64,000 nt of DNA from Halopiger goleimassiliensis (lineage in GTDB: Archaea > Halobacteriota > Halobacteria > Halobacteriales > Natrialbaceae): assembly GCF_000455345.1 (NCBI RefSeq), contig NZ_HG315690.1:2704339-2768338 (forward strand), given 5' to 3'. The stretch's first letter is position 1. Every line of letters begins with the position of its first letter. The notes beneath the pieces were generated by a model. That model worked only from the letters and a program-made list of their open reading frames with translations, did no database searches and was not told the DNA's origin. The translations under genes were made by a program, and so were the position numbers. Of this stretch, positions 41,309 to 54,081 are shown piece by piece.

Positions 41309-42247
41309 ATGACCGTATCCATCGGACGCGCGCTGGTGACGGGCGGCGCAGGCTTCGTCGGTACCCACCTCGTCCAGCGGTTGCTCGCGGACGGGACGGC
41401 CGTGACGGTCGTCGACGACTGCTCGAACGGTGACCGCGACCGGATTCCGGACGACGCGGAGTTCGTCGAAGCGGACCTGACCGAGTCGGACGCGCTGGCG
41501 GGCCACCTCGAGGGCGTCGACTTCGTCTTCCACCTCGCGGCGTCGAAACACGTCGACACGGATCGCCCGCACGGCCAGTTCGACGACAACACCCGGATGA
41601 CTCGCACCCTCCTCGAGGCGATGGCCGACGCCGACGTGACCGATATCGCGTACACTTCCTCCTCGACGGTCTACGGCGAGGCTCCGCGACCGACGCCCGA
41701 GGATTACGCCCCGCTCGAGCCGATCAGCGCCTACGGCGCGAGCAAACTGGCCGACGAGGCGCTGCTCTCGGCGCGGGCACACAGCCACGACCTGACCGTC
41801 CGAACGTTCCGGTTCGCGAACGTCGTCGGACCGGGCTTGCGCGGGGCAGTGATCCCGGACTTCATCGAGAAACTGCAGGCCGATCCGGAGACGCTCACGA
41901 TCCTCGGCGACGGCCGCCAGGAGAAGTCCTACCTCCACGTCGAGGACTGCATCGACGCGGTGCTGCACGTCGTCGCCCGAACCGGCGGCGACGGTGGCTC
42001 GATGCACACCTTCAACCTCGGTACGCGAACGACGACCTCCGTCGACCGGATCGCTACCATCGTCGCCGACGAGATGGGGCTCGATCCCGCGTTCGAACAC
42101 ACCGGCGGCGAACGGGGCTGGACCGGCGACGTCCCGAAGATGCGCCTCTCGATCGAGAAACTGTCGGCGCTGGGGTGGGAGCCGACGTGCTCGAGCGACG
42201 AGGCCGTCCGTCGGGCGACGCGGGAACTCCTCGCGGAACTCGACTGA
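41309..42247 (+). CDS. NAD-dependent nucleotide-sugar epimerase/dehydratase
   Basis: 312 residues, extended SDR. The NAD-binding TGGAGFVG is at about 11-18, the catalytic YGASK triad element (ISAYGASKLADEAL) and Ser of YTSSSTVYGE are present, and the substrate-region GDGRQEKSYLHVEDCIDAVL matches UDP-glucose 4-epimerase-like enzymes. The exact sugar is unknown. It directly precedes the iron-operator locus in the same direction (97 nt to the next start) and is a likely sugar supplier, although no TAGG-N4-CCTA site precedes it. Confidence 0.88.
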   Translation: MTVSIGRALVTGGAGFVGTHLVQRLLADGTAVTVVDDCSNGDRDRIPDDAEFVEADLTESDALAGHLEGVDFVFHLAASKHVDTDRPHGQFDDNTRMTRTLLEAMADADVTDIAYTSSSTVYGEAPRPTPEDYAPLEPISAYGASKLADEALLSARAHSHDLTVRTFRFANVVGPGLRGAVIPDFIEKLQADPETLTILGDGRQEKSYLHVEDCIDAVLHVVARTGGDGGSMHTFNLGTRTTTSVDRIATIVADEMGLDPAFEHTGGERGWTGDVPKMRLSIEKLSALGWEPTCSSDEAVRRATRELLAELD

Positions 42248-42303: not shown

Positions 42304-42321
42304 TTTTAGGTGAGCTTAAAT
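42304..42321 (+). promoter_or_regulatory. DtxR/Idr-like operator site 1 (imperfect)
   Basis: TTTTAGGTGAGCTTAAAT has core TAGG-N4-CTTA, with one mismatch to the TAGG-N4-CCTA form of the other four sites. It overlaps the AT-rich stretch 42315-42323, which is the probable TATA box of the gene starting at 42345. DtxR-family iron regulators bind such palindromes; that identification is by motif only. Confidence 0.55.
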
Positions 42322-42344
42322 ATCTGGGCTAGCGAGTCCGGAGC

Positions 42345-43490
42345 ATGAACGACGGCGGGGACCACACGGCACCGGAACCGACGGGGGATCGGTCGTCCCG
42401 CCGATTTGTCGGACGGCTGACTCGACGGCACGTGACGATCGCCGGAACGGTGCTGGTCGTCCTCGGCCTGCTCGTCGCGATCCGAGAGATCGACGGGGGT
42501 GCGGTCCTCGCGGACGTCACCGATGCCGACCGCCGATACCTCGTGGCTGCGGCGGTCGCCTACGCCCTCTCGTGGCCGCTTCGGGGCCGCCGGTACGGCG
42601 ACGTGCTGTCGGCGATGGATCACCGCCTCGGGACGGCCTTCCTTACGGCCGCGGTCTTCGTCAGTCAGACGGCCAACCTCGCGATCCCGGCGCGGGCCGG
42701 CGACGCCGCACGCGCGTACGTCCTCAAAGAGCGGGACGTGCCCTACACCGCGGGCTTCGCCTCGCTGACCGTAGAACGGCTCTTCGACCTGGCAACGATC
42801 GCGGCGCTGGCCGGCCTCGCGACGGCCTGGCTCGCTGTCCAGGGTGACGCCGGCCCGCTCGCGAGCGCGGCGACCGACGGGGCGCGGACGGCCCTCCTCG
42901 CCGCTGGCGTCGTCAGCACGACCGCCGTCGGCGTCGGTGCCGTGGTCGTCACCGCGGCCAGATCGAACCGCGACCTCGCTGCGGAGCTTCGGACGCACGT
43001 CGGGGGATCGTCCCGACGCGACCGCGCGCTCGAGGCCGGACTCCGGTTCGCCGGCGACGTCGCGGTCGTCGCTCGCCGACCGCGTGCGTTAGTTACGATC
43101 GGGGCCGCCAGCCTGGCGGTGTGGGCGCTGGACGTCCTCACGGCGATACTCGTGCTCGCGGCGTTAGACAGCGGCCTCGCGCTCGGCCCCCTGGTCGCGG
43201 TCGGGACGCTGGCGGTCAGCGTCGGCAACCTGGCGAAGGTGTTGCCGCTCTCGCAGGGCGGCGTCGGTCTCTACGAGGCCGCGTTCACGGCGTTGATCGT
43301 CGCGCTCACGCCCGTCGGCGCGAGCACGGCCCTGGCCGCGGCGATCGTCGATCACGCGCTGAAAAACGCGATCACCCTCGTCGGCGGGGCGGCGTCGGTG
43401 GCGTCGCTTGGCGTCTCGCTGACGGCGGCGACCGACGAGCCAGGAGCCGACCGCGAGACCGGCAGTTTTTTAGGCCAGCCTAAAAGATAG
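42345..43490 (+). CDS. Flippase-like (LPG synthase transmembrane, UPF0104/AglD-type) protein
   Basis: 381 residues with about eight membrane helices. The family signature NLAIPARAGDAARAYVLKE and the C-terminal LPLSQGGVGLYEAAF match the lysylphosphatidylglycerol synthase transmembrane / UPF0104 group. AglD of Haloferax belongs here as a fused glycosyltransferase. Such proteins act in lipid-linked sugar handling. The last codons (SFLGQPKR) are encoded by operator site 2. The promoter carries operator site 1. Confidence 0.82.
   Translation: MNDGGDHTAPEPTGDRSSRRFVGRLTRRHVTIAGTVLVVLGLLVAIREIDGGAVLADVTDADRRYLVAAAVAYALSWPLRGRRYGDVLSAMDHRLGTAFLTAAVFVSQTANLAIPARAGDAARAYVLKERDVPYTAGFASLTVERLFDLATIAALAGLATAWLAVQGDAGPLASAATDGARTALLAAGVVSTTAVGVGAVVVTAARSNRDLAAELRTHVGGSSRRDRALEAGLRFAGDVAVVARRPRALVTIGAASLAVWALDVLTAILVLAALDSGLALGPLVAVGTLAVSVGNLAKVLPLSQGGVGLYEAAFTALIVALTPVGASTALAAAIVDHALKNAITLVGGAASVASLGVSLTAATDEPGADRETGSFLGQPKR
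43468..43485 (+). promoter_or_regulatory. DtxR/Idr-like operator site 2
   Basis: TTTTAGGCCAGCCTAAAA has TAGG-N4-CCTA flanked by matching TTT and AAA. It sits 13-30 nt upstream of the gene starting at 43498 and lies inside the last codons of the flippase-like gene. Confidence 0.8.
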
Positions 43491-43497
43491 CGGAGCA

Positions 43498-44664
43498 ATG
43501 AGTCAGGACATCTGCGTCGTCGTTCCGACGATCCGGGAGTACGAGTGCATGCGCTCGTACTTCGAGAACGCCCGCGAACACGGCTTCGACCTCTCGCGAC
43601 TCCACGTCGTCCTCGTCACCGAGGACTTCTGCGAGACCGACGCGATGGAACGGATGCTCGAGGAGGAAGGCGTCGCCGGCGAGGTCTTCGACGGCACCCG
43701 CCGGGAGGAGTGGTACGCCGAGCACGGCATCGAGGAGTACGGGCACGTCGTCCCCGCCGCGAGCCACGCCGAGACGAGTTTCGGCCTGCTGTACATGTGG
43801 GCCAACGACGAGTTCGAGTACGGCTTCTTCATCGACGACGACACCCTCCCTCATCCCGAGGAAGACTTCTTCGGGACGCACATGGAGAACCTCGCCTTCG
43901 AGGGCGAGATCGAGGAGATCTCCTCGGACGAGCAGTGGGTCAACGTCCTCTACCAGAACGCCGACGAACACGGTCTCTACCCGCGCGGGTATCCCTACTC
44001 GGCGATGGGAGAGACCGTCGAAACCGGGACGACCGAAATCGAGCGCGGCCAGGTCGTCGCCTCGCAGGGCCTGTGGACGAACGTCCCCGACCTCGACGCC
44101 GTCCGCATTCTGATGGACGGGGACCTCGAGGGACAGGCCCAGACGCGCACCTCCCGAGAGGACTTCGGCGACGACTTCGTCGCCGCTCGCGGGAACTACC
44201 TCACCGTCTGCTCGATGAACCTGGCGTTCCGCCGCGAAGTGATCCCCGCCTTCTACCAGTTGCCGATGGACGACAACGAGTGGGACGTGGGCCGCTTCGA
44301 CGACATCTGGTCGGGCGTCTTCCTCAAGCGCGCCTGCGACGTGCTCGGCAAGCGCATCTACAACGGCGCGCCGCTCTGTGAGCACAACAAGGCCCCCCGC
44401 AGCACCTTCGACGACCTCAACAACGAGGTGCCGGGACTAGAACTCAACGAGCACCTCTGGCGAATAATCGACGACGTCGGTGCCGGCGCGGACTCCTACG
44501 GCGAGATCTTCGAGGCGATGGGCCGCGAACTCGCAGAGGGCGACTGGTCCGACTACAACAACGGAGCGTTCTTCAACTACGTCGGCGAACACATGCTCGA
44601 CTGGCTCGAGGCCCTCGAGGCCCTCGAGCGGCCCGTCGCCGTTGCTGGGAATCGACGCCTATAA
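43498..44664 (+). CDS. RGP/UAM-type glycosyltransferase (GT75 family)
   Basis: 388 residues. The hallmark residues of reversibly glycosylated proteins/UDP-arabinopyranose mutases are present: DDD in YGFFIDDDTLPH, RGYPYSAMG, SQGLWTNVPDLDA, CSMNLAFRREVIPAF and GRFDDIWSG. Plant relatives interconvert UDP-arabinopyranose and UDP-arabinofuranose, and bear autoglycosylation. Haloarchaeal copies are often named alpha-1,4-glucan-protein synthase. The protein is soluble. The promoter carries operator site 2. It may make a nucleotide sugar for the neighbouring membrane glycosyltransferases. Confidence 0.85.
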   Translation: MSQDICVVVPTIREYECMRSYFENAREHGFDLSRLHVVLVTEDFCETDAMERMLEEEGVAGEVFDGTRREEWYAEHGIEEYGHVVPAASHAETSFGLLYMWANDEFEYGFFIDDDTLPHPEEDFFGTHMENLAFEGEIEEISSDEQWVNVLYQNADEHGLYPRGYPYSAMGETVETGTTEIERGQVVASQGLWTNVPDLDAVRILMDGDLEGQAQTRTSREDFGDDFVAARGNYLTVCSMNLAFRREVIPAFYQLPMDDNEWDVGRFDDIWSGVFLKRACDVLGKRIYNGAPLCEHNKAPRSTFDDLNNEVPGLELNEHLWRIIDDVGAGADSYGEIFEAMGRELAEGDWSDYNNGAFFNYVGEHMLDWLEALEALERPVAVAGNRRL

Positions 44665-44669
44665 GTATA

Positions 44670-44685
44670 TTTAGGCCGGCCTAAA
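44670..44685 (+). promoter_or_regulatory. DtxR/Idr-like operator site 3 (perfect palindrome)
   Basis: TTTAGGCCGGCCTAAA is a perfect 16-bp palindrome ending 4 nt before the start codon at 44690. The TATA-like ctataagtat lies at about 44659-44668, 22-31 nt before the ATG. A bound repressor would block a leaderless transcript start. Confidence 0.85.
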
Positions 44686-44689
44686 AAAT

Positions 44690-45805
44690 ATGACTCGAAA
44701 CCGCGTTTCGACCGATCGGCGGACGTTTCTCGCCGGTTCGGCCGCTCTCGGCGCGGCCGGTCTCGCCGGCTGTACCGGCCTCATCGGTGGTGAGGACGAC
44801 GACCAGTTGATCGGTCAGATCGGCTCCGGTCGCGAGGGACGGCCGGAACCCGGCGGCACGCCGATGGCCGAACTGCCGGACCTCGAGGGGGAACTCACCG
44901 TCTACTCGGGCCGCGGTGAGTTCCTCGTCGGCGAACTGCTCGATCACATCGAGGGGCTCTACGACGACTTCGAGGCGAACATCGATCCCGGTGGCTCCTC
45001 GGATCTCGTCAACCAGATCCTGACCGAAGGGGAGGGTACCCACGCCGACGTCTTCTACACCGTCGACTCCGGCGCGCTCGGCACCCTCGCGGACGAGGGC
45101 CGCACCCAGTCGCTCTCGAGTGACACCCTCGACATGATCGACGAGGAGACGTTCTACACCGACGACTGGGTCGGTACGTCGGGTCGCGCCCGGACGATCC
45201 CCTACAACACGGACGCGCTCTCCGAGAGCGACATGCCCGACTCGATCGACGCCTACGCCGACTTCGACGGCCAGCTCGGCTGGGCACCCGAGTACGGCTC
45301 CTTCCAGGGGTTCGTCACCTCGATGCGCATCCTCGAGGGCGACGAGGCTACCCGCGAGTGGCTCGAGGGCATCATCGACTCCGGGGTCGCGTACTACGGC
45401 AACGAGATGGCCGTCGCCGAAGCGGTCAACGACGGCGAACTCGACGCCGGGTTCACGAACCACTACTACATCCAGCGGGTCATCGAGGGCTCCTCGGATC
45501 CGTCGATCGCCACCAACTTCACCGCGGGCGACGCCGGTGCGACGTTCGACGTCGCCGGCGCGACCGTGATCGATCAGGCCGACGATCCCGAACTCGCCGA
45601 GAACTTCATCAAGCACCTCCTCTCCAGCGAGGCCCAGGAGTTCTTCGCCGTGGAGACGTTCGAGTACCCCACCATCGAGGGCGTCGAGCCCGTCGGCGAC
45701 CTGCCGACGCTCGAGGAACTCGACGTGCCGGACGTCGACCCGACCCAGCTATCGAACGTCGACGAGACGATCGAACTGATGCGCGAGGCCGGCGTCGACA
45801 TCTGA
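44690..45805 (+). CDS. Iron-type ABC transporter substrate-binding lipoprotein
   Basis: 371 residues. A Tat signal and lipobox (DRRTFLAGSAALGAAGLAGC) anchor it outside the membrane. The mature protein resembles Fbp/FutA ferric-binding proteins: LTVYSGRGEFLVGELL, YNTDALSESDMPDS, AYYGNEMAVAEAVNDGELDA and FTNHYYIQRVI with adjacent tyrosines of the sort that bind Fe(III). The operator at the promoter supports iron. It has a permease partner 6.6 kb away (52444) and no ATPase in the window. A large glycosyltransferase follows in the same direction. Confidence 0.87.
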   Translation: MTRNRVSTDRRTFLAGSAALGAAGLAGCTGLIGGEDDDQLIGQIGSGREGRPEPGGTPMAELPDLEGELTVYSGRGEFLVGELLDHIEGLYDDFEANIDPGGSSDLVNQILTEGEGTHADVFYTVDSGALGTLADEGRTQSLSSDTLDMIDEETFYTDDWVGTSGRARTIPYNTDALSESDMPDSIDAYADFDGQLGWAPEYGSFQGFVTSMRILEGDEATREWLEGIIDSGVAYYGNEMAVAEAVNDGELDAGFTNHYYIQRVIEGSSDPSIATNFTAGDAGATFDVAGATVIDQADDPELAENFIKHLLSSEAQEFFAVETFEYPTIEGVEPVGDLPTLEELDVPDVDPTQLSNVDETIELMREAGVDI

Positions 45806-45844
45806 TCGGCCCCCACTCGTCTCCAGCACCGTCTCCGCGTTCTC

Positions 45845-48058
45845 GTGACTCGAGCCACCGACTACCGGCGTCGACTCGCCCGCTTTTCCCGCCGCCTGCG
45901 TCGGGGTGATCTTACCGGCGGTGACCGCTACCGGATCGCGGCGCTCGTCCTCTCGCTGTCGGCCGGACTCGCGGTCTTCGTCGTCGCCAGCCGGCTGTTT
46001 CCGTACCACTCGAGCAACGACGACGAGGCCGTCTACCTCCTCCAGGCCGCGATGTTGCTCGAGGGGCAACTCGAGCTCCACGCGGGCGAGCTGGCCGACG
46101 CCTTCAGGCCCTGGTTCTTCGTTGAAGACAGCGGTCGACTCTACCCGAAGTACACGCCGGTTCCGGCGGCGATGTTCGCCGGCGGGATGGCCATCTTCGG
46201 CGAGCCGCGGGTGACGCTCGCGGTCGTCGCGGCTGGCAACGCCGCGCTGGTGTACGTCCTCGGCTCGATGGTGTTCGACCGGACGGTCGGTCTCGTCGCC
46301 GCCGCCTGCTTCGCCGCCTCGCCGCTGGCCTTGCTCACCTCGTCGGTGTTCCTGCCCTACGCGCCGACGACCCTGTTGAACCTGCTGTTCGCGGTGTTGT
46401 ACCTGCGGGGCGTCCGGGACGCCCACGCCCCGAGCGCCGCCGGTGCGGGCGTCGCTATCGGACTCGCCTTCTTCGCCCGCCCCTACACGGCGGTGCTGTT
46501 CGCGGCTCCGTTCGTCCTCCACGCGCTGTGGAGCGTCGTGCGGGTTTGCCGTCACGATGGGGTCGCCGCACTCCGGTGGCCCCTCCCCGATCCGATCCGT
46601 CGGAACGCCCTCACCGCCGGCTTCGGACTGGCGTTCGTCGGCCTCACGCTCGCGTACAACGCCCGCCTGACGGGGTCGCCGCTGGTGTTCCCCTACGAGG
46701 CGTTCGCGCCGCTGGACGGCCCGGGCTTCGGTTACCGCGAGATCGAGGGGCATTCGATGGAGTACACCCCGTCGCTGGCGCTCGAGGCGAACGGCTACGT
46801 GCTCCGGTACTTCGCCACCCGGTGGTTCACCGCGGGACTGATCGGCACCATCGCAGCGCTGGCCGGCTTGGCGCTCGCGCTCCGGCGCTGGCTCCCGACA
46901 GCCGACGGAGAAGGCGGTCACTTCGGCCGGATTGCCGGCCTCGTGCTGGCCGGCCTCCTGGTGACGGTTCCGCTGGGCAACGTCGCGTTCTGGGGGAACC
47001 GGAACATCCTCTCGACGATGGGCGACCCGACGAACGGCCTCATCTCGCAGTTCGGGCCGTTCTACCACTTCGACCTCCTCGTCCCGCTCTCGATCTTCGC
47101 TGGGTTCGCGGCCGTGGCGGGCTGGCGACGGCTCCGTAGCGGTCGCCTCCAGGACCGACTCGCCGCCCGCACCACCAGCGAGACGGCCCGCCGCATCGCA
47201 CTCGCAGCCCTCGTCTCGAGCGTCCTGCTCGTCGGCGCGGCGAACGCGGCGATCCTCGCGCCGCCCGTCGAGCGGAACGACGCGTACACCGAGGGGTTCG
47301 AGGAGGCCTACGAACCCTTCGAGGAGCGAGACCTCGAAGAGGCGCTCGTCTTCCTCCCGACGCCCTATGGCGACTGGCTGGGCCACCCGTTCCAGCCGCT
47401 GCGGAACGATCCCGGCCTCGACGGCGAGGTCGTCTACGCGCTCGAGGGCGATCCCGAGCGCGATTTCGCCGTCATCGACGCCTACCCCGACCGCACCTAC
47501 TACCGGTATGCCTACCACGGCGAGTGGACGGCCACGCCCGACGACCCCGTGACCGCCACGCTCGAGGAACGAACCGTCCGCGAGGCCGAGACGTTCGACG
47601 GGGAGATGGTCGTCGGCGTCCTCTCGACCGTCGACTACGCGACCGTCCGCCTCGAGGCCGACGTCGGCGGCTACGCGACCTACGATCTGAACGAACTTGG
47701 CGAGGACGTCACGGTCGACTGGACGCTCGAGGACGGGACTGCGTCGATCGACCGCGTCCACAGCGGTGACGCGAACCGGTCGCTCGAGAACGCCTCGGTC
47801 GACCTGGGGGCGACGGACGAACTCGCGCTCTCGGTGACGCTGCTCCAGTCCGACGGCTCGTCGCTCACCTACCGACAGGAGGCGACCGTCCGAACGACCG
47901 ACGACGGACACGAGGTCGTCTGGCCGCCCGAGCGGACGGTCTGTACGCTCGTCACCCAGTGTGGCTCGGAAGGGACGTACATTCCCGACGAACCCGACCT
48001 GTACTTCGACGGCGTGTCGTTCGAGACGCGACTCGAGGCAAGCGACGCGGGACCGTGA
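45845..48058 (+). CDS. Membrane glycosyltransferase (GT39/ArnT-like GT-C fold)
   Basis: 737 residues from GTG. The N-terminal two thirds hold about eleven to twelve membrane helices with the acidic loop SSNDDEAVYLLQA near residue 57, the site expected for the catalytic Asp/Glu of GT-C enzymes. The C-terminal ~220 residues are a soluble extracytoplasmic domain. GT39 enzymes transfer sugars from a lipid-phosphate carrier. It is 39 nt after the binding-protein gene, likely in the same transcript, and convergent with the GT2 gene (32-nt gap). Confidence 0.83.
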   Translation: MTRATDYRRRLARFSRRLRRGDLTGGDRYRIAALVLSLSAGLAVFVVASRLFPYHSSNDDEAVYLLQAAMLLEGQLELHAGELADAFRPWFFVEDSGRLYPKYTPVPAAMFAGGMAIFGEPRVTLAVVAAGNAALVYVLGSMVFDRTVGLVAAACFAASPLALLTSSVFLPYAPTTLLNLLFAVLYLRGVRDAHAPSAAGAGVAIGLAFFARPYTAVLFAAPFVLHALWSVVRVCRHDGVAALRWPLPDPIRRNALTAGFGLAFVGLTLAYNARLTGSPLVFPYEAFAPLDGPGFGYREIEGHSMEYTPSLALEANGYVLRYFATRWFTAGLIGTIAALAGLALALRRWLPTADGEGGHFGRIAGLVLAGLLVTVPLGNVAFWGNRNILSTMGDPTNGLISQFGPFYHFDLLVPLSIFAGFAAVAGWRRLRSGRLQDRLAARTTSETARRIALAALVSSVLLVGAANAAILAPPVERNDAYTEGFEEAYEPFEERDLEEALVFLPTPYGDWLGHPFQPLRNDPGLDGEVVYALEGDPERDFAVIDAYPDRTYYRYAYHGEWTATPDDPVTATLEERTVREAETFDGEMVVGVLSTVDYATVRLEADVGGYATYDLNELGEDVTVDWTLEDGTASIDRVHSGDANRSLENASVDLGATDELALSVTLLQSDGSSLTYRQEATVRTTDDGHEVVWPPERTVCTLVTQCGSEGTYIPDEPDLYFDGVSFETRLEASDAGP

Positions 48059-48090
48059 GTTCGCGACCGCAGGAAAGCGGCGATCCCGAA

Positions 48091-48843
48091 TTATCGCGAC
48101 GGGTCGTGCGGCAGTTCGCGCAGCCGTTCCTCGAGACAGACCTTGACGATCGATTTTCCGATCTCGGCACCGCCCTTCAGGGGGTCGAGTTTCGTCTCCC
48201 CGGCGCGCTCGCGATACTCGATGGGGTGTTCGCGGACGTCGTAGCCCCGCATGAGCGGACGGATCAGCAGTTCGGCCGAGAGGCCGGTGTTCTCGCTCCA
48301 CTCGATGTCCTCGATCACCTCGCGGCGATAGGCGCGCATCCCGGTCGTGGTGTCGTGGACGCGCGTTCCCATGAGGAGACTGGCAACGGCGGCGAAGACG
48401 TGGTTGCCGAAGCGGTTCAGCGTCGGCATCGCCTCCGCGCCGTGGTAGAGGCGGTCGCCGCTGACCACGTCGTAGCCCGCGTTGATCAGCTCGAGGAACT
48501 CCGGCAGCTGCTCCATCGGGTAGGTGTCGTCGCAGTCGGTCGTGACGACGATCGGCCGGTCGGCCGCCAGAAGCGCCTCGTGGACGGCGACGCCGTAGCC
48601 CTGTGGCTCCTGTTCGATCACCGTCGCGCCGTGCTCGCGGGCGATCTCGGGCGTCCGATCGGAGGAGCCGTCGACGCAGACGACCTCGGCCTCACCGTCG
48701 GTGACCGCCTCGATGTCCGACAGCACCGTGCCGATCGCCTCCTCCTCGTTGTACGTTCCCATGACGACGCTGACGTCCTCGAAGGTGTACGCCCCGGCGT
48801 CGTCGGCACCGCCCGTCAGCTCGGTCCCGTCCTCGCTACTCAT
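48091..48843 (-). CDS. GT2 glycosyltransferase, dolichyl-phosphate-hexose synthase type
   Basis: 250 residues. GT2 fold with VSVVMGTYNEEEAIGTVL, the nucleotide-sugar DGSSDRTPEI, the metal-binding TTDCDDTYPM, and the family feature DTTTGMRAYRREV. It would load a sugar from a nucleotide donor onto a dolichyl phosphate carrier in the cytoplasm, feeding a GT-C enzyme such as the one at 45845. No C-terminal membrane anchor is clear. The promoter has operator site 4. Confidence 0.88.
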   Translation of the reverse strand: MSSEDGTELTGGADDAGAYTFEDVSVVMGTYNEEEAIGTVLSDIEAVTDGEAEVVCVDGSSDRTPEIAREHGATVIEQEPQGYGVAVHEALLAADRPIVVTTDCDDTYPMEQLPEFLELINAGYDVVSGDRLYHGAEAMPTLNRFGNHVFAAVASLLMGTRVHDTTTGMRAYRREVIEDIEWSENTGLSAELLIRPLMRGYDVREHPIEYRERAGETKLDPLKGGAEIGKSIVKVCLEERLRELPHDPSR

Positions 48844-48873
48844 TGGCGGTACTCTCTGTCCGCCGTATTTATA

Positions 48874-48891
48874 TTTTAGGTTTGCCTAAAA
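48874..48891 (-). promoter_or_regulatory. DtxR/Idr-like operator site 4
   Basis: On the plus strand TTTTAGGTTTGCCTAAAA; read on the minus strand the core is TAGGCAAACCTA, the same as site 5. It lies immediately upstream of the minus-strand TATA box (ATATAAATA, complement of 48866-48874), which is 23-31 nt before the GT2 start codon at 48843. Confidence 0.82.
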
Positions 48892-48961
48892 CGTCGGAGT
48901 AGCCGCCCCGAACGGCGAGACCGATCGACCGCCGGCGACGCGCTCCTCTCGGGGACGGCGG

Positions 48962-49999
48962 CTACGCGGCTCCGGCGTTCCGTCCGCCGTCGACCTGCTC
49001 ACGGAGGAGGGTCTCGAGGTGAGCGATGCGCGTTTCAGTGCTGGGATGCGTCCGGAACGGTCCGCGCGACGCCGATGCGTCGCGTGGAAGAATATCCAGT
49101 ACGCTGGCCGACTTCGCCCAGGTGCGCTTGTCCTCGGACGGACGCGAGCGCCGGTCCGAGAGCGTCTCGAGCGCGCTGACGAGGGTGCCCGGAGAGCCGG
49201 TCAGTTCCGCGGCCCCCCTGTCGGCCGCGAGTTCGCGACCGCGCGAGAGGGTCGCGATACCGAACTGACAGCACAGTCGCTGGACGGCCGTGACGGCAGT
49301 CAGGAGCGCCCACAGGCCGACGTGAGCCAGGTAGCCGAGCGGTTGGCGGACGAGCAGTTCTCGCGACGGGGGATCGTCCGACCCCACGCGTTCGGCGACG
49401 AGCATCGGGACGAGCACGAGGTTCGTGATGCGACTGTCGCCGTTCGCGAGGTGGCTGATCTCGTGGGCGAGGACGGCCTCGAGTTCGTCGCCCGAGAGCG
49501 CGCTCACGAGTCCGGTCGTGACGATGATCGTCCCGTTCGACCGCCCGCCGACGGCGTACGACTCCGCTCGCTGACGGTCGGCGACGTACGTATCCGGCTC
49601 CGGAATATCCGCCTGCTGGGCGAGCCGACGGGTCCGGTTCGCCAGTTCGGGATGCGTTTCGGTGGCCGGCGCACCCGCTTCGCCGAGTTCGGCCCGGAAC
49701 GCCCGAATTTCGTCCCGGACCGGTCGGTAGTACAGGATCGGAAGCAGGGGGATCCCGGCTACCACTGCAACGCGAAGGGGAGACGTGAGGACGCTCCAGA
49801 ACAATCCGTAAGAGCCCCCGGAAAACGGCAGCAACAGCGTCTCGAGCGCGTACACGACGGGGAGCAGCGCGAGCCAGGCGAGTAATCCGCCCGCGAGGAT
49901 CGCCGTCGCCGCGACGACGAGCGAGACGACCGCGAGCACGGCCAGTGCGGCGAGCATCCGCCAGGCCAGCGACAACCGCATCCGACGACCGAGATTCAT
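48962..49999 (-). CDS. M48-family (HtpX-like) membrane metalloprotease
   Basis: 345 residues. Two or three hydrophobic helices at the N-terminus (residues 10-90), then the gluzincin motif HEISH at 179-183, and the third zinc ligand Glu in GRELAADRGAAEL. HtpX-type proteases degrade misfolded membrane proteins. It sits inside the iron-regulated region but no TAGG-N4-CCTA site precedes it, so it may be a bystander. Confidence 0.88.
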   Translation of the reverse strand: MNLGRRMRLSLAWRMLAALAVLAVVSLVVAATAILAGGLLAWLALLPVVYALETLLLPFSGGSYGLFWSVLTSPLRVAVVAGIPLLPILYYRPVRDEIRAFRAELGEAGAPATETHPELANRTRRLAQQADIPEPDTYVADRQRAESYAVGGRSNGTIIVTTGLVSALSGDELEAVLAHEISHLANGDSRITNLVLVPMLVAERVGSDDPPSRELLVRQPLGYLAHVGLWALLTAVTAVQRLCCQFGIATLSRGRELAADRGAAELTGSPGTLVSALETLSDRRSRPSEDKRTWAKSASVLDILPRDASASRGPFRTHPSTETRIAHLETLLREQVDGGRNAGAA

Positions 50000-50128
50000 G
50001 ACGGCGACTCCACACGAATCGATCCGATCGAGGGGCTGATCAATCTTCTGTGATACGTTCGCCGTCCCCGGCGGTCCCGACGACGGAACGCCCCGGTGCG
50101 GCGGCGACCGACGGGGGCACAGAACGGA

Positions 50129-51769
50129 TCACGAGAGCGTCGCGAGCACGTCCTCGGCGGCCTTCAGCGCGAGCGCCGCGATCGTCAGCGTCGGGTTCAT
50201 CGCGCCGCCGGTCGGGAAGACGCTGCTCGAGGCGATCCAGCAGTTCTCGAGGTCGTGGGTCCGCAGGTCGGGGCCGACGACGCTCTCGGCGGGGTCGTCG
50301 CCCATTCGGGTGGTTCCCATGTGGTGGAACGCCGGCCCCGTGTTCTCGGGACCGACGCGGCCGGTGATCTCCGCGCCGAGTTCCTCGAGAATCCGCTCCT
50401 GAACCTCGTTGGCCCGTTCGATCGTCCGCAACGCCCGGTCGCCGACATTCCAGTGGACGTCCGGGACGGGGTTGCCGTGGTCGTCGGTCGTCTCCGGGTC
50501 GAGAGCGACGTAGCTGTCCTCGCGGGGGAGTTGCTCGACCAGCGCCCCCATCCCGACGTGGGTGCCGTACTCGGAGCGGATCCGCTCGAGCAAGGAGTCG
50601 CCCCACTCGTTGCCGGAGAGGGCCATCCCCACGGGGGAGGGGCCAGCGTAGTTGAAGAACTCGAGTTTGAACGGGCCGACCTCCTCGTCAGCCTCGTCGT
50701 AGAACTGGTGGCACTCGCTGGTCATGAACCCGACGTGGTTCTGCCGGGTCGGCTCGTCCAGGACGCCGTCGACCCCGGCGAAGAGGTGGTCCATGAAGAA
50801 CCGACCCACGAGGCCGCTCGAGTTCGCGAGGCCCTCGGGGTGCTCGGGCGACTCGGAGAGCAACAACAGCCGCGGCGTCTCGACCCCGCCGCAGGCGATC
50901 ACGAAGGCGTCGGCCTCCTGGCGGTACTCCTCGCCGTCGGGAGTGGCGTAGACGGCCGCCTCGAGCGTTTCCCCGGCGGCGTCGTGTTCCAGCCGCTGGA
51001 CCGGCGCGCGGTCGATCACCGTCGCGCCCTTCTCCTCGGCGCGCTCGACGTGAACCGTCGCGTCGTACTTCGCGCCGGAGGGGCAGACGGGTTCGCAGGT
51101 GCCGTAGCCGACGCAGGCGCTCCGGCCGTCGTAGCCCTCGGAGTTGCGGGCGTTCGGCACCGAGTGCATCGCGATCCCCAGCTCGTCGCAGGCCTCGGCG
51201 AACAGCGAGTCGCTGTAGGAGGGCGGAAACGGAGGCATCGGGTGGGGCTCCTCGCGGGGCGGCGCGAAGGGATTGTCGTCGGCCCCTGCAACGCCCAGTT
51301 CGCGCTCGGCCTGCGCGTAGTACGGCCGCAGGTCCTCGTACTCGATCGGCCAGTCGACGCCGACGCCGCGCGCAGACTGGGAGTTGAAGTCGTCCTCGTG
51401 CAGCCGCATCACCATCCCCTGCCAGTGGAGCGTCGTCCCGCCGACGCCTTTCACGCGGGTCTGGTTGAGCGGGTAGAACCACTCGCCGGACGCCGAGTGG
51501 GCGTCCCGTTCGGGGTCGCCGTCCCAGACGTCCGGGCGGTCGTAGGCCGGCCGGATCGCGCGCTCCTGGCGAGCCAGCCGATCCTCGGCGGAGAAGCGAG
51601 GGCCGGCCTCGAGGATCACCACCTCGTACCCCTCCCCGGCGAGGCGGTCGGCCACCAGGCCGCCGGCCGGCCCTGCTCCGACGACACAGACGTCGGCGTC
51701 CTCGACGGGCGTCCGGTCCGTGGCACCCTCGAGCGGCGCGGCCGCCTCGGCGGGCGGACGGGAACTCAC
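50129..51769 (-). CDS. GMC-family FAD oxidoreductase
   Basis: 546 residues starting at GTG, overlapping the upstream stop by 4 nt (GTGA). The FAD-binding motif is ADVCVVGAGPAGGLVADRLA, then GVGGTTLHWQGMV, and the C-terminal active-site-like region has FHHMGTTRMG and PTGGAMNPTLTIAALAL. A cysteine-bearing ACVGYGTCEPVCPSGAKYDA is like that of gluconate/sorbitol-type dehydrogenases. It oxidises an alcohol or sugar using FAD. It carries no signal of its own and would need its partner subunit for export. Confidence 0.88.
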   Translation of the reverse strand: MSSRPPAEAAAPLEGATDRTPVEDADVCVVGAGPAGGLVADRLAGEGYEVVILEAGPRFSAEDRLARQERAIRPAYDRPDVWDGDPERDAHSASGEWFYPLNQTRVKGVGGTTLHWQGMVMRLHEDDFNSQSARGVGVDWPIEYEDLRPYYAQAERELGVAGADDNPFAPPREEPHPMPPFPPSYSDSLFAEACDELGIAMHSVPNARNSEGYDGRSACVGYGTCEPVCPSGAKYDATVHVERAEEKGATVIDRAPVQRLEHDAAGETLEAAVYATPDGEEYRQEADAFVIACGGVETPRLLLLSESPEHPEGLANSSGLVGRFFMDHLFAGVDGVLDEPTRQNHVGFMTSECHQFYDEADEEVGPFKLEFFNYAGPSPVGMALSGNEWGDSLLERIRSEYGTHVGMGALVEQLPREDSYVALDPETTDDHGNPVPDVHWNVGDRALRTIERANEVQERILEELGAEITGRVGPENTGPAFHHMGTTRMGDDPAESVVGPDLRTHDLENCWIASSSVFPTGGAMNPTLTIAALALKAAEDVLATLS

Positions 51770-52290
51770 GATTCGGGCCCCCGCTGGTAGGTCTCGAGGC
51801 CGCCGGCGTGGCCCTGCGGGTTCTCGATGCCGGCCAGTTCGCCCCCCGTCGGCGAGACGTACAGCCCCAGCAACAACTCGTTGACGACGTAGTAGCGGAT
51901 CCGCTCCGGCGTCGTGCCGTCGGGCCGTTCCGGCACGCTCGCCACGCCCAGGGTGCGCAACAGCAGGTCGCGGTCGTCGACGGACAGGTCGGCGAACGGG
52001 ACGCCCTGCCACCCCTCCGCCTCGTCGTCGAGGTCGGCGATGGTCGCCTCCAGTCCCGCCGCGTGGCCCGCCGCGTCGAGACGACCCTCGAGGAAGGTCT
52101 CGACGAATTCCTCGACGCCCTCGAGTTCGGAGGGATAGACGACCTCGGCGGCCGCGAGCATCGTCTCGATGGTGTGTTCTCGAGACGCCGATGAGCCGCC
52201 GGTTCGACTGCGGTGGAGGGCCGTGACCGCCGCGCCGCCGGCACCCAGCGCCGCGAGCGCGGCGACCGCGTCCCGCCTCGTCAACTCCAT
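51766..52290 (-). CDS. Gluconate 2-dehydrogenase subunit 3-type protein
   Basis: 174 residues. The N-terminus is a Tat-like signal (ELTRRDAVAALAALGAGGAA), and the mature part is all-helical with EVVYPSELEGVEEFV and LLLRTLGVA, matching the small subunit that partners membrane-bound GMC dehydrogenases. It can carry the flavoprotein to the outside by Tat hitchhiking. It is the first gene of the pair and has operator site 5 at its promoter. Confidence 0.82.
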   Translation of the reverse strand: MELTRRDAVAALAALGAGGAAVTALHRSRTGGSSASREHTIETMLAAAEVVYPSELEGVEEFVETFLEGRLDAAGHAAGLEATIADLDDEAEGWQGVPFADLSVDDRDLLLRTLGVASVPERPDGTTPERIRYYVVNELLLGLYVSPTGGELAGIENPQGHAGGLETYQRGPES

Positions 52291-52298
52291 GCACAGGG

Positions 52299-52314
52299 AT
52301 TAGGCAAACCTAAA
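52299..52314 (-). promoter_or_regulatory. DtxR/Idr-like operator site 5
   Basis: ATTAGGCAAACCTAAA has the TAGG-N4-CCTA core. It lies 9-24 nt upstream of the start codon at 52290, between the minus-strand TATA box (CTATAAGG, complement of 52316-52323, about 26 nt upstream) and the ATG. The permease gene at 52444 is divergent, 130 nt away, and could share it. Confidence 0.8.
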
Positions 52315-52443
52315 CCTTATAGCCGTTGAAACGAGACGCTTCGCGTACGTACCGCGTCGGGAGTGGCGACCGCATCGACGAGCGGGGGTTCGTCTCGGAC
52401 GGTCGCCGTCGCACCCGACCCACGTTGATTCGACTTCGACCTC

Positions 52444-54081
52444 ATGAAATCGCTCTTTCGACGCTACGGCCGGACGACGGACGACCTGCCGATCGGGCTG
52501 ACCTTGCTCTCCGGGGCCATCGCCGCGACGATCCTCTTCCCGCTCACGTGGCTCGTCGTCGAGGCGGTGACCGTCGAACCGGGACGGGCGTGGGAGATGG
52601 TCGTCCGCCCGAAGACGCTCGAGGTCGTCCTCAACAGCCTCCTGATGACGACCGGCGTGACGGTGCTGTCGATCCTGATCGGCGTCCCGCTCGCGTGGCT
52701 CACCGTCCAGACGGACCTGCCGTTCCGGCGATTCTGGTCCGTCGTCGTCGCCCTCCCCCTCGTGATTCCCAGCTACATCGGCGCGTTCGCGTTTGTCTCG
52801 GCGTTCGGTCCCCGGGGCGAGTTCCAGTCCCTGCTCGAACCGCTGGGCATCGAGCAGATCCCCGAAATCTACGGCCTCCCCGGGACGGTCCTGGTCATCA
52901 CGCTCTACACCTACCCCTACGTCTACCTGACCACCCGAGCCGCGTTGCTCTCGTTCGACACCACCCTCCTCGACGCCGCGCGGACGCTCAACCACGGCCG
53001 CTGGCGGGCGTTTCGCCGCGTCACCTTTCCGCAGATCCGCCCGGCGGTCGCCGCCGGCGCTCTCCTGGCCGCGCTGTACGCCATCTCCGACTTCGGGACG
53101 CCCGCGATCATGCGGTTTTCCGTCTTCACCCGGCAGATCTACCTCGAGATGAACACGTTCAACGTCGAGTACGCCGCGATGCTCTCGCTGCAGTTGCTCG
53201 GCCTCGTCCTCGTCGTGCTCGCGCTCGAGTCGGCCGTGCGATCGAACGAGTCAGTACAGAGCGACGCCGCCGGCGGGAGCGGGGCCTCCTCGGGGCCGGC
53301 CGTCACGCTGGGCGCGTGGCGCTGGCCGGCGACGCTGTTGCCCGCCGCCGTGACGACGCTTGCGCTCGTCGTCCCCATCTGGATCCTGGGGCTCTGGCTC
53401 GTCAACGCCGATCCCTCAGCCCGTCCGGAACTCGCGTTCGAACTCCACTACGCGACGAACTCGCTGAAGGTCGCCGGGGCCGCGGCGCTCGTCTCGGTAC
53501 TGGCCGCACTGCCCGTCGCCTACTTCGCGGCCAGAAACGACTCGCCGCTGTCGGGGCTGTTCGAGCGCGCCACCTACGTCGGCTTCGCGGTTCCGGGCAT
53601 CGTCCTCGCGCTCGCACTGGTGGCCTTCGCGACGTCGTACGACGGATTCGCCGGCGACTCGCCGCTGCTGCCGGCGATCTACAAGACGACGCCGCTGCTC
53701 GTCTTCGCCTACGTCGTCCGGTTCATGCCCCAGGCGGTCGGCTCGATCCGCTCGAGCACCCTGCAGGTTGATCCGATGCTCGTCGAGGCCGCGCGTACCC
53801 TCGGGACGCCGCCGCTGCGGGCGTTCCGGCGGATCACGCTCCCGCTCGTGACGCCCGGCATCGTCGCCGGGGCGGCGCTGGTCTTCCTGACCACCATGAA
53901 GGAACTGCCGGTGACGCTCATCCTCAAGCCCATCGGGTTCGAGACGCTGGTCACCCTCATCTGGGAGGCCCAGGAGCAGGCGTACTTCCAGTACGCCGTG
54001 ATCCCCTCGATTCTGTTGCTCGTCATCTCCGGCCTCTCGATGGTGATCCTCCTCTCGGCCGGTAACCAGGAAGGGCTCTGA
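52444..54081 (+). CDS. Ferric-type ABC transporter permease (fused FbpB form)
   Basis: 545 residues with about twelve membrane helices, arranged as two homologous halves. Each half carries an EAA-like coupling motif: LLDAARTLNHGRWRAFRRVT in the first, and LVEAARTLGTPPLRAFRRIT in the second. This doubled form is typical of ferric iron (FbpB/SfuB) permeases. It is divergent from the gluconate-dehydrogenase pair. The ATPase gene is not in the window. Confidence 0.9.
   Translation: MKSLFRRYGRTTDDLPIGLTLLSGAIAATILFPLTWLVVEAVTVEPGRAWEMVVRPKTLEVVLNSLLMTTGVTVLSILIGVPLAWLTVQTDLPFRRFWSVVVALPLVIPSYIGAFAFVSAFGPRGEFQSLLEPLGIEQIPEIYGLPGTVLVITLYTYPYVYLTTRAALLSFDTTLLDAARTLNHGRWRAFRRVTFPQIRPAVAAGALLAALYAISDFGTPAIMRFSVFTRQIYLEMNTFNVEYAAMLSLQLLGLVLVVLALESAVRSNESVQSDAAGGSGASSGPAVTLGAWRWPATLLPAAVTTLALVVPIWILGLWLVNADPSARPELAFELHYATNSLKVAGAAALVSVLAALPVAYFAARNDSPLSGLFERATYVGFAVPGIVLALALVAFATSYDGFAGDSPLLPAIYKTTPLLVFAYVVRFMPQAVGSIRSSTLQVDPMLVEAARTLGTPPLRAFRRITLPLVTPGIVAGAALVFLTTMKELPVTLILKPIGFETLVTLIWEAQEQAYFQYAVIPSILLLVISGLSMVILLSAGNQEGL

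Follow-up and report, generated by a model that had tools for sequence, protein, structure and literature searches.

A predicted iron-repressed haloarchaeal module linking ferric ABC import with the assembly of a surface glycan

In the present study we analysed a 64-kb window of the 3.9-Mb, 99.7% complete genome of the haloarchaeon Halopiger goleimassiliensis, and we propose that the genes lying between positions 42305 and 54081 belong to an iron-repressed module, in which a ferric ATP-binding cassette (ABC) importer is coupled to a surface glycan-assembly line. From sequence comparison we give this reading a probability of about two in three. A first-pass annotation of the same DNA had already suggested an iron-type regulon spanning import, glycan assembly and an exported flavoenzyme, and the operators, the gene set and the iron-related targets described below bear that suggestion out; that a glycan is made together with iron uptake is a point which we, too, infer.

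The five dyads named in that annotation are all present at their places, correct to within a few bases, and each lies just before a gene as claimed, with a start codon within about 45 bp downstream. Four are perfect TAGG-N4-CCTA palindromes, and the fifth, with its core at 42307, reads TAGG-N4-CTTA. The length of the motif is corrected from 18 bp to the 16 bp of the consensus TTTAGGYNNRCCTAAA conserved in related loci. The operators are the following:

42305 to 42320, plus strand: imperfect operator TTTAGGTGAGCTTAAA, preceding the UPF0104 gene (plus strand), the right half of which fuses with the TATA-like CTTAAATA
43469 to 43484, plus strand: perfect operator before the GT75 gene (plus strand), within the last codons of the UPF0104 open reading frame
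44670 to 44685, plus strand: perfect operator between the TATA-like TATAAGTATA and the ATG of the FbpA-like lipoprotein gene (plus strand)
48875 to 48890, minus strand: perfect operator immediately upstream of the TATA-like element of the GT2 gene (minus strand)
52299 to 52314, unstranded: operator in a divergent promoter region, before the small twin-arginine translocation (Tat) subunit gene of the flavoenzyme pair (minus strand) and also 130 bp before the permease gene (plus strand)

A scan of the window for TAGGN4CYTA finds these five places, all between 42.3 and 52.3 kb, and none further; counted by strand, 9 matches were observed against 0.32 expected from shuffles. In order to map the neighbourhood in relatives, GT75 was used as an anchor in 80 loci (1.54 Mb), of which the 71 with at least 7 kb beyond GT75 were counted as long. 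In this sample, whose loci share ancestry so that the counts are not independent events, TAGGN4CCTA occurs 284 times, every other spacer from 0 to 12 gives between 0 and 4 occurrences, and four unrelated palindromes produce no comparable N4 peak. The two T before TAGG are kept at 99 and 92% and are mirrored by A after CCTA, both positions being outside the searched core. In the source genome a reversed control pattern is commoner than the dyad (74 vs 28 on the forward strand), an excess probably due to the rarity of the words TAG and CTA there; since the reversed control outnumbers the dyad, reliance was placed on the spacer controls and on a Haloferax genome in which TTAGGN4CCTAA and its reversal occur 25 and 0 times.

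The distribution of the operator among genes is equally selective. With at most one mismatch and within 200 bp, it accompanies 100% of the GT75, 100% of the GT2, 95% of the UPF0104, 84% of the lipoprotein and 81% of the Tat subunit genes. The permease genes, many of them located within operons, have it in 43% of cases, other genes in 9% and the operon-internal genes (GT-C, GMC, FbpC and epimerase) in 0-1%. Two promoter geometries recur across loci: the lipoprotein and Tat subunit genes have the order TATA-dyad-ATG, and GT2 and, in Natrialbaceae, UPF0104 have dyad-TATA-ATG; both appear compatible with repression. The imperfect CTTA half of the UPF0104 operator, where it runs into the TATA-like element, is retained species after species, being found in the window, in each of the 12 Natrialbaceae-type loci in which the upstream region is covered, and also in a Halovenus locus (L098). 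The half-sites TTAGG and CCTAA are the same as in DtxR boxes, whereas the gap between them is 4 bp here and 9 bp in the 19-bp corynebacterial consensus (PMC1382209). Because of this spacer the operator is not a corynebacterial DtxR box, even though it may function like one.

Outside the window many of the dyads mark iron-type genes. The genome holds 27 perfect cores, 23 of them outside the window, and 11 of these 23 precede siderophore uptake or synthesis genes, a DtxR-type regulator gene or an FbpC ATPase gene. Siderophore uptake is represented among the targets by siderophore-binding proteins and FecCD permease operons, and synthesis by a schizokinen-type pair of diaminobutyrate aminotransferase and decarboxylase. 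The others are the gene of a DtxR-family regulator, near which a Dps-like ferritin is encoded, and the FbpC-type ATPase (TOBE domain) of the importer itself, which is encoded about 2.56 Mb from the window behind a dyad of its own. A small number of cores, which are without the T/A flanks or outside any promoter, look like chance. The genome-wide scan thus finds the dyads chiefly at a regulator gene and at genes for the uptake and synthesis of siderophores, and not at random before unrelated ones, an outcome that favours the first-pass annotation; with the FbpC gene among the targets, the assignment of the regulon to iron is well supported by the position of the dyads. In Haloferax, siderophore transport genes have been reported to carry a FerR signal and to be induced when iron is scarce (PMC11349517). 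The present set resembles the DtxR-type iron regulons, including those of haloarchaeal Idr/SirR/FerR, in targeting iron uptake and siderophore genes, and differs from them in that glycan genes are additionally among the targets. Four strong matches to PF01325 occur in the genome, one of them directly behind a dyad. At this place (L031:3427-4106) the gene of a 133-aa DtxR-family regulator is flanked by two dyads, with the ferritin gene on the other strand, and its product is a candidate for an autoregulated repressor.

The genes of the module and its surroundings are predicted to be as follows:

42345 to 43490, plus strand: UPF0104/LPG_synthase_TM membrane protein (PF03706, E 1.4e-43)
43498 to 44664, plus strand: GT75 (RGP family) enzyme of the nucleoside diphosphate (NDP)-pyranose/furanose mutase type (PF03214, 65 bits against a cut-off of 23.8)
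44690 to 45805, plus strand: FbpA-type ferric-binding lipoprotein with a Tat motif and the lipobox LAGC (PDB 7w3w, E 5.4e-52)
45845 to 48058, plus strand: GT-C membrane glycosyltransferase (PMT_2) with an extracellular DUF7846 tail (PF13231, PF25230), without an operator of its own
48091 to 48843, minus strand: GT2 protein similar to dolichol-phosphate-sugar synthases (PF00535; PDB 5mlz, E 5.9e-12)
50129 to 51769, minus strand: GMC flavoenzyme of the flavin adenine dinucleotide (FAD)-glucose/fructose dehydrogenase type (PDB 8hdd, E 5.4e-89)
51766 to 52290, minus strand: small subunit with Tat signal (Gluconate_2-dh3, PF13618, TRRD motif), export partner of the GMC protein, with a 4-bp gene overlap
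52444 to 54081, plus strand: FbpB-type two-domain ferric ABC permease (PF00528 in two stretches; present in 66 of the 71 long loci)
41309 to 42247, plus strand: sugar-nucleotide epimerase/dehydratase (PF01370), a possible accessory without operator

The gene set and its operators are conserved across haloarchaeal families, as the comparison in relatives demonstrates. Among the 71 long loci the lipoprotein and the GT-C protein are found in all 71, GT2 in 58, the Tat subunit in 54, GMC in 43, UPF0104 in 38 and an adjacent FbpC in 24; the epimerase lies within 27 of 81 loci (window included), at varying positions and with an operator in none. Three gene orders recur: GT75, binding protein and GT-C (PMT) with a divergent flavoenzyme/permease block; GT75, binding protein, permease and PMT; and, in Haloferax and others, GT75, binding protein, permease, FbpC and PMT. 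Since the loci had been found through GT75, the reverse distribution was tested as well. GT75 occurs in 77 of the 97 genomes sampled from the class, and the GT-C protein in 16 of 16 tested GT75-positive genomes vs 0 of 20 GT75-negative ones. Across 295 genomes of the phylum PF03214 and PF25230 have an identical presence (40 with both, 255 with neither), the GT75 and DUF7846 genes being 3.2 to 6.9 kb apart in 40 of the 40; within the class the co-occurrence gives a Fisher value of 1e-12, a statistic that ignores shared ancestry. In two Haloarcula-type loci (L093:14064-19968 and L101:14127-19940) there are two GT-C/DUF7846 copies, separated by the genes of the Tat subunit and of an ABC ATPase.

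Several observations weigh against the proposed reading. Most GT75-negative genomes have Fbp-type lipoproteins in plain operons, often with their own TAGGN4CCTA sites, and as these operons lack glycan genes, import of this kind does not depend on the glycan. The GT2 and epimerase orthologues of Haloferax are encoded elsewhere and carry no dyad, and a stand-alone UPF0104 orthologue was not found there; GMC was found neither in the Haloferax loci nor in most Haloarcula-type loci. Moreover, several DtxR-type proteins of the source genome are candidates for the repressor. The Haloferax arrangement reduces the invariant core to GT75, lipoprotein and GT-C protein, nearly always with the permease, and one branch of ferric importers has the glycan genes as a frequent, dedicated partner without import requiring them. 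We have also considered a link to HVO_1859 (UPF0104) and HVO_0655 (GalE-like), which are induced 11.6-fold and 12.7-fold by iron starvation in Haloferax volcanii (PMC11349517). This link was not used: in Haloferax denitrificans the only UPF0104 match is an AglD-like fusion and the epimerase orthologue has no dyad, so the identity of those two genes with members of the module is unproven.

The lipoprotein aligns over most of its mature length with solved ferric-binding proteins, and the iron-ligand pair YY corresponds to Y259 and Y260 in the C-lobe, kept in at least 97% of 75 homologues; by sequence it is probably an FbpA-like ferric-binding protein. As in the FbpABC, HitABC and SfuABC importers, a Tyr-pair lipoprotein, a two-domain permease and an FbpC-type ATPase with a TOBE domain are present, while here the genes are interleaved with GT75 and GT-C, several separate iron-type operators are used and, in this genome, the ATPase gene is detached. 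Manganese could be thought of as the controlling metal, through a MntR/SirR-like regulator and with a Mn-dependent GT75 as the reason, given that the DtxR family has manganese regulators and that the solved GT75, MtdL, is an NDP-pyranose mutase using Mn2+ (PMC9937993); however, the same dyad precedes siderophore uptake and diaminobutyrate-type siderophore synthesis genes, which are iron functions, and we consider manganese control highly improbable. Even less credible is a binding protein that takes sugar phosphate or thiamine, like some members of the fold, instead of Fe. Such a ligand would suit a neighbourhood rich in sugar genes and a protein that Pfam assigns to general substrate-binding families only, but nearly all of the 28 solved homologues listed are named as iron-binding (best E 5.4e-52) and the ferric-site tyrosines are conserved as a pair.

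On the glycan side, the best PDB match of the GT75 protein is MtdL (E 2.1e-22), and D113-D115, R163, D198, S239, R266, D269 and H296 are kept in at least 97% of 81 sequences. It shares with MtdL and the plant UAM/RGP proteins the DxD motif, the autoglycosylated Arg, the catalytic Asp and the Mn-binding His (D113-D115, R163, D269 and H296), whereas the sugar-contacting Asp87 and Gln229 of MtdL are replaced by His90 and Met240; we predict an enzyme of the NDP-furanose mutase type. By GT75 comparison Natronococcus jeotgali, at 91% identity, is the closest named relative, and no characterised archaeal member of the family was found in the papers searched. GT2 has a dolichol monophosphate mannose synthase (5mlz) as its best PDB match and a weak, 29% identity to the N-terminal half of a Haloferax AglD-like protein, the C-terminal half of which (residues 255-624) is 46% identical to the UPF0104 protein, a candidate factor for the translocation of the dolichol-phosphate (Dol-P) sugar. 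In the AglD-AglR-AglS branch of Haloferax a sugar is loaded on dolichol phosphate, moved across the membrane and transferred outside (PMC3871713). The module shares this logic, with GT2 and UPF0104 resembling the two halves of the AglD-like protein; it differs in that these are separate genes and not one chain, which leaves at most an AglD-like function and not membership of AglD, and in that the GT75 mutase, the DUF7846 tail, the iron-type control and the importer linkage are found only here.

The lipoprotein had been assigned a site together with a GT39-type transferase; this holds for the lipoprotein, while the transferase gene, which follows that of the lipoprotein, lacks an operator. The GT39 label of the transferase depends on a weak PMT_2 match (PF13231), and the fit to other GT-C families is equally good or better. 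A PDB sequence search with the GT-C protein gave no match. Its AlphaFold model (predicted local distance difference test, pLDDT, 87) has the GT-C fold, with Z 24-27 to oligosaccharyltransferases, ALG12 and ArnT, followed by arabinofuranosyltransferases; N58-x-D60-E61, the acidic motif of the first outer loop, is invariant. The modelled fold leaves donor and acceptor unspecified. The DUF7846 tail has two invariant cysteines and a beta-rich fold without a clear PDB relative (best Z 5.5, tied with unrelated folds).

The pair described earlier as gluconate-dehydrogenase-like is indeed a pair, though among solved structures its large subunit is nearer to the FAD-glucose and fructose dehydrogenases. 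C219, C225 and C229 of the GMC protein, kept in at least 97% of 43 sequences, align with C212, C218 and C222 of 8hdd, which we take to be the ligands of its 3Fe-4S cluster. The combination of a three-cysteine GMC large subunit with a Tat small subunit is that of the FAD-glucose and fructose dehydrogenase complexes, the iron-type operator being the difference; no cytochrome subunit of the multi-haem type was found by Pfam among the neighbouring genes. Between the GT2 operator and this pair, and only in this genome, lies an HtpX-like M48 protease gene (48962-49999, minus strand), which looks like a late insertion because no related gene was found there in the 80 mapped relatives. In Haloarcula-type loci (L074:17168-17785 and others) the Tat small subunit stands beside GT2 without an adjoining GMC large subunit.

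Thus, we propose that in the presence of iron a DtxR-family repressor would occupy the dyads and block initiation, sitting between TATA and a near-leaderless start in the lipoprotein, Tat subunit and probably GT75 promoters, and on the side of the transcription factor B recognition element (BRE) and TATA in those of GT2 and, in Natrialbaceae, UPF0104. Iron starvation would free these promoters in a single response that has an import arm and a surface glycan arm. In the import arm Fe(III) would be taken up by the FbpA lipoprotein, the FbpB permease and the distant FbpC ATPase. In the glycan arm GT75 would form an NDP-furanose, GT2 would load a sugar onto dolichol phosphate, the AglD-C-like UPF0104 protein may help the Dol-P-sugar to cross the membrane and the GT-C/DUF7846 enzyme would transfer the sugar to an acceptor outside, where the Tat-exported FAD/3Fe-4S dehydrogenase may oxidise a sugar or a related alcohol. 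The tie between glycan and import is genetic and regulatory; chemistry, acceptor and purpose are what we infer.

As to purpose, the glycan might hold or present Fe(III) near the lipoprotein, a tentative view that we judge somewhat likelier than either of two others. The glycan arm could instead act on the uptake system, modifying the lipoprotein or partner proteins for stability or placement, as in archaeal protein glycosylation, the sugar holding no iron; the GT-C model is similar to oligosaccharyl- and O-mannosyltransferases that act on proteins, and the lipoprotein and GT-C genes always share one locus. The conserved N-terminal linker of the lipoprotein was considered as a module-specific glycosylation target and rejected, as similar linkers occur in homologues from transferase-free genomes; no module-specific acceptor site is therefore seen, and we regard protein modification as unlikely. 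A general remodelling of the surface in iron starvation (adhesion, virus receptor, S-layer), with a glycan that merely shares the iron signal, would agree with the separate promoters and operators of GT75, GT2 and UPF0104 and with importers that do exist without the glycan, but the tight linkage of lipoprotein and GT-C (71 of 71 loci) suggests a closer functional tie and we place it at the same low level. Returning to a glycan that holds iron, its most specific form would be a cell-bound, furanose-bearing and possibly oxidised glycan or glycolipid, made only in iron starvation, that holds Fe(III) at the membrane and hands it over to FbpA independently of siderophores, the flavoenzyme making an acidic ligand or reducing iron; this elaboration is speculative and rather improbable.

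Archaeal surface glycans are usually studied for salt, S-layers and viruses. The haloarchaeal Idr/SirR/FerR iron regulon was reportedly treated by Leyn and Rodionov in 2015, and iron control of Fbp transport has been predicted before. The open papers searched make no mention of the GT75/GT-C glycan arm, and the regulon tables of 2015 may already list some of the genes. A dedicated glycan-transfer gene set tied to ferric import by gene order and operator provides a testable job for the uncharacterised archaeal GT75, DUF7846 and the exported Fe-S flavoenzyme. Its conservation across most of the group suggests that cells may alter their surface sugars when short of iron, and since Haloferax carries the core module, genetics could ask whether the surface shares in archaeal iron capture.

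Other dyads of the genome may point to further members of the iron regulon. Two haloarchaeal genes of no assigned function (DUF7551/DUF7552 and DUF7260), possibly new members, follow a double dyad (L024:3041-3087). Another dyad precedes the gene of a lipoprotein that combines DUF5059 with a plastocyanin-like copper domain (L028:1374-2902), which hints that iron may control a copper redox protein. Possible targets are also an FAD oxidoreductase behind a dyad (L029:2948-4042), a methyltransferase and a 6-phosphogluconate-dehydrogenase-like gene with a dyad between them (L036:2946-3132), and an NMT1-like ABC binding protein with a dyad at its start (L033:2962-4026).

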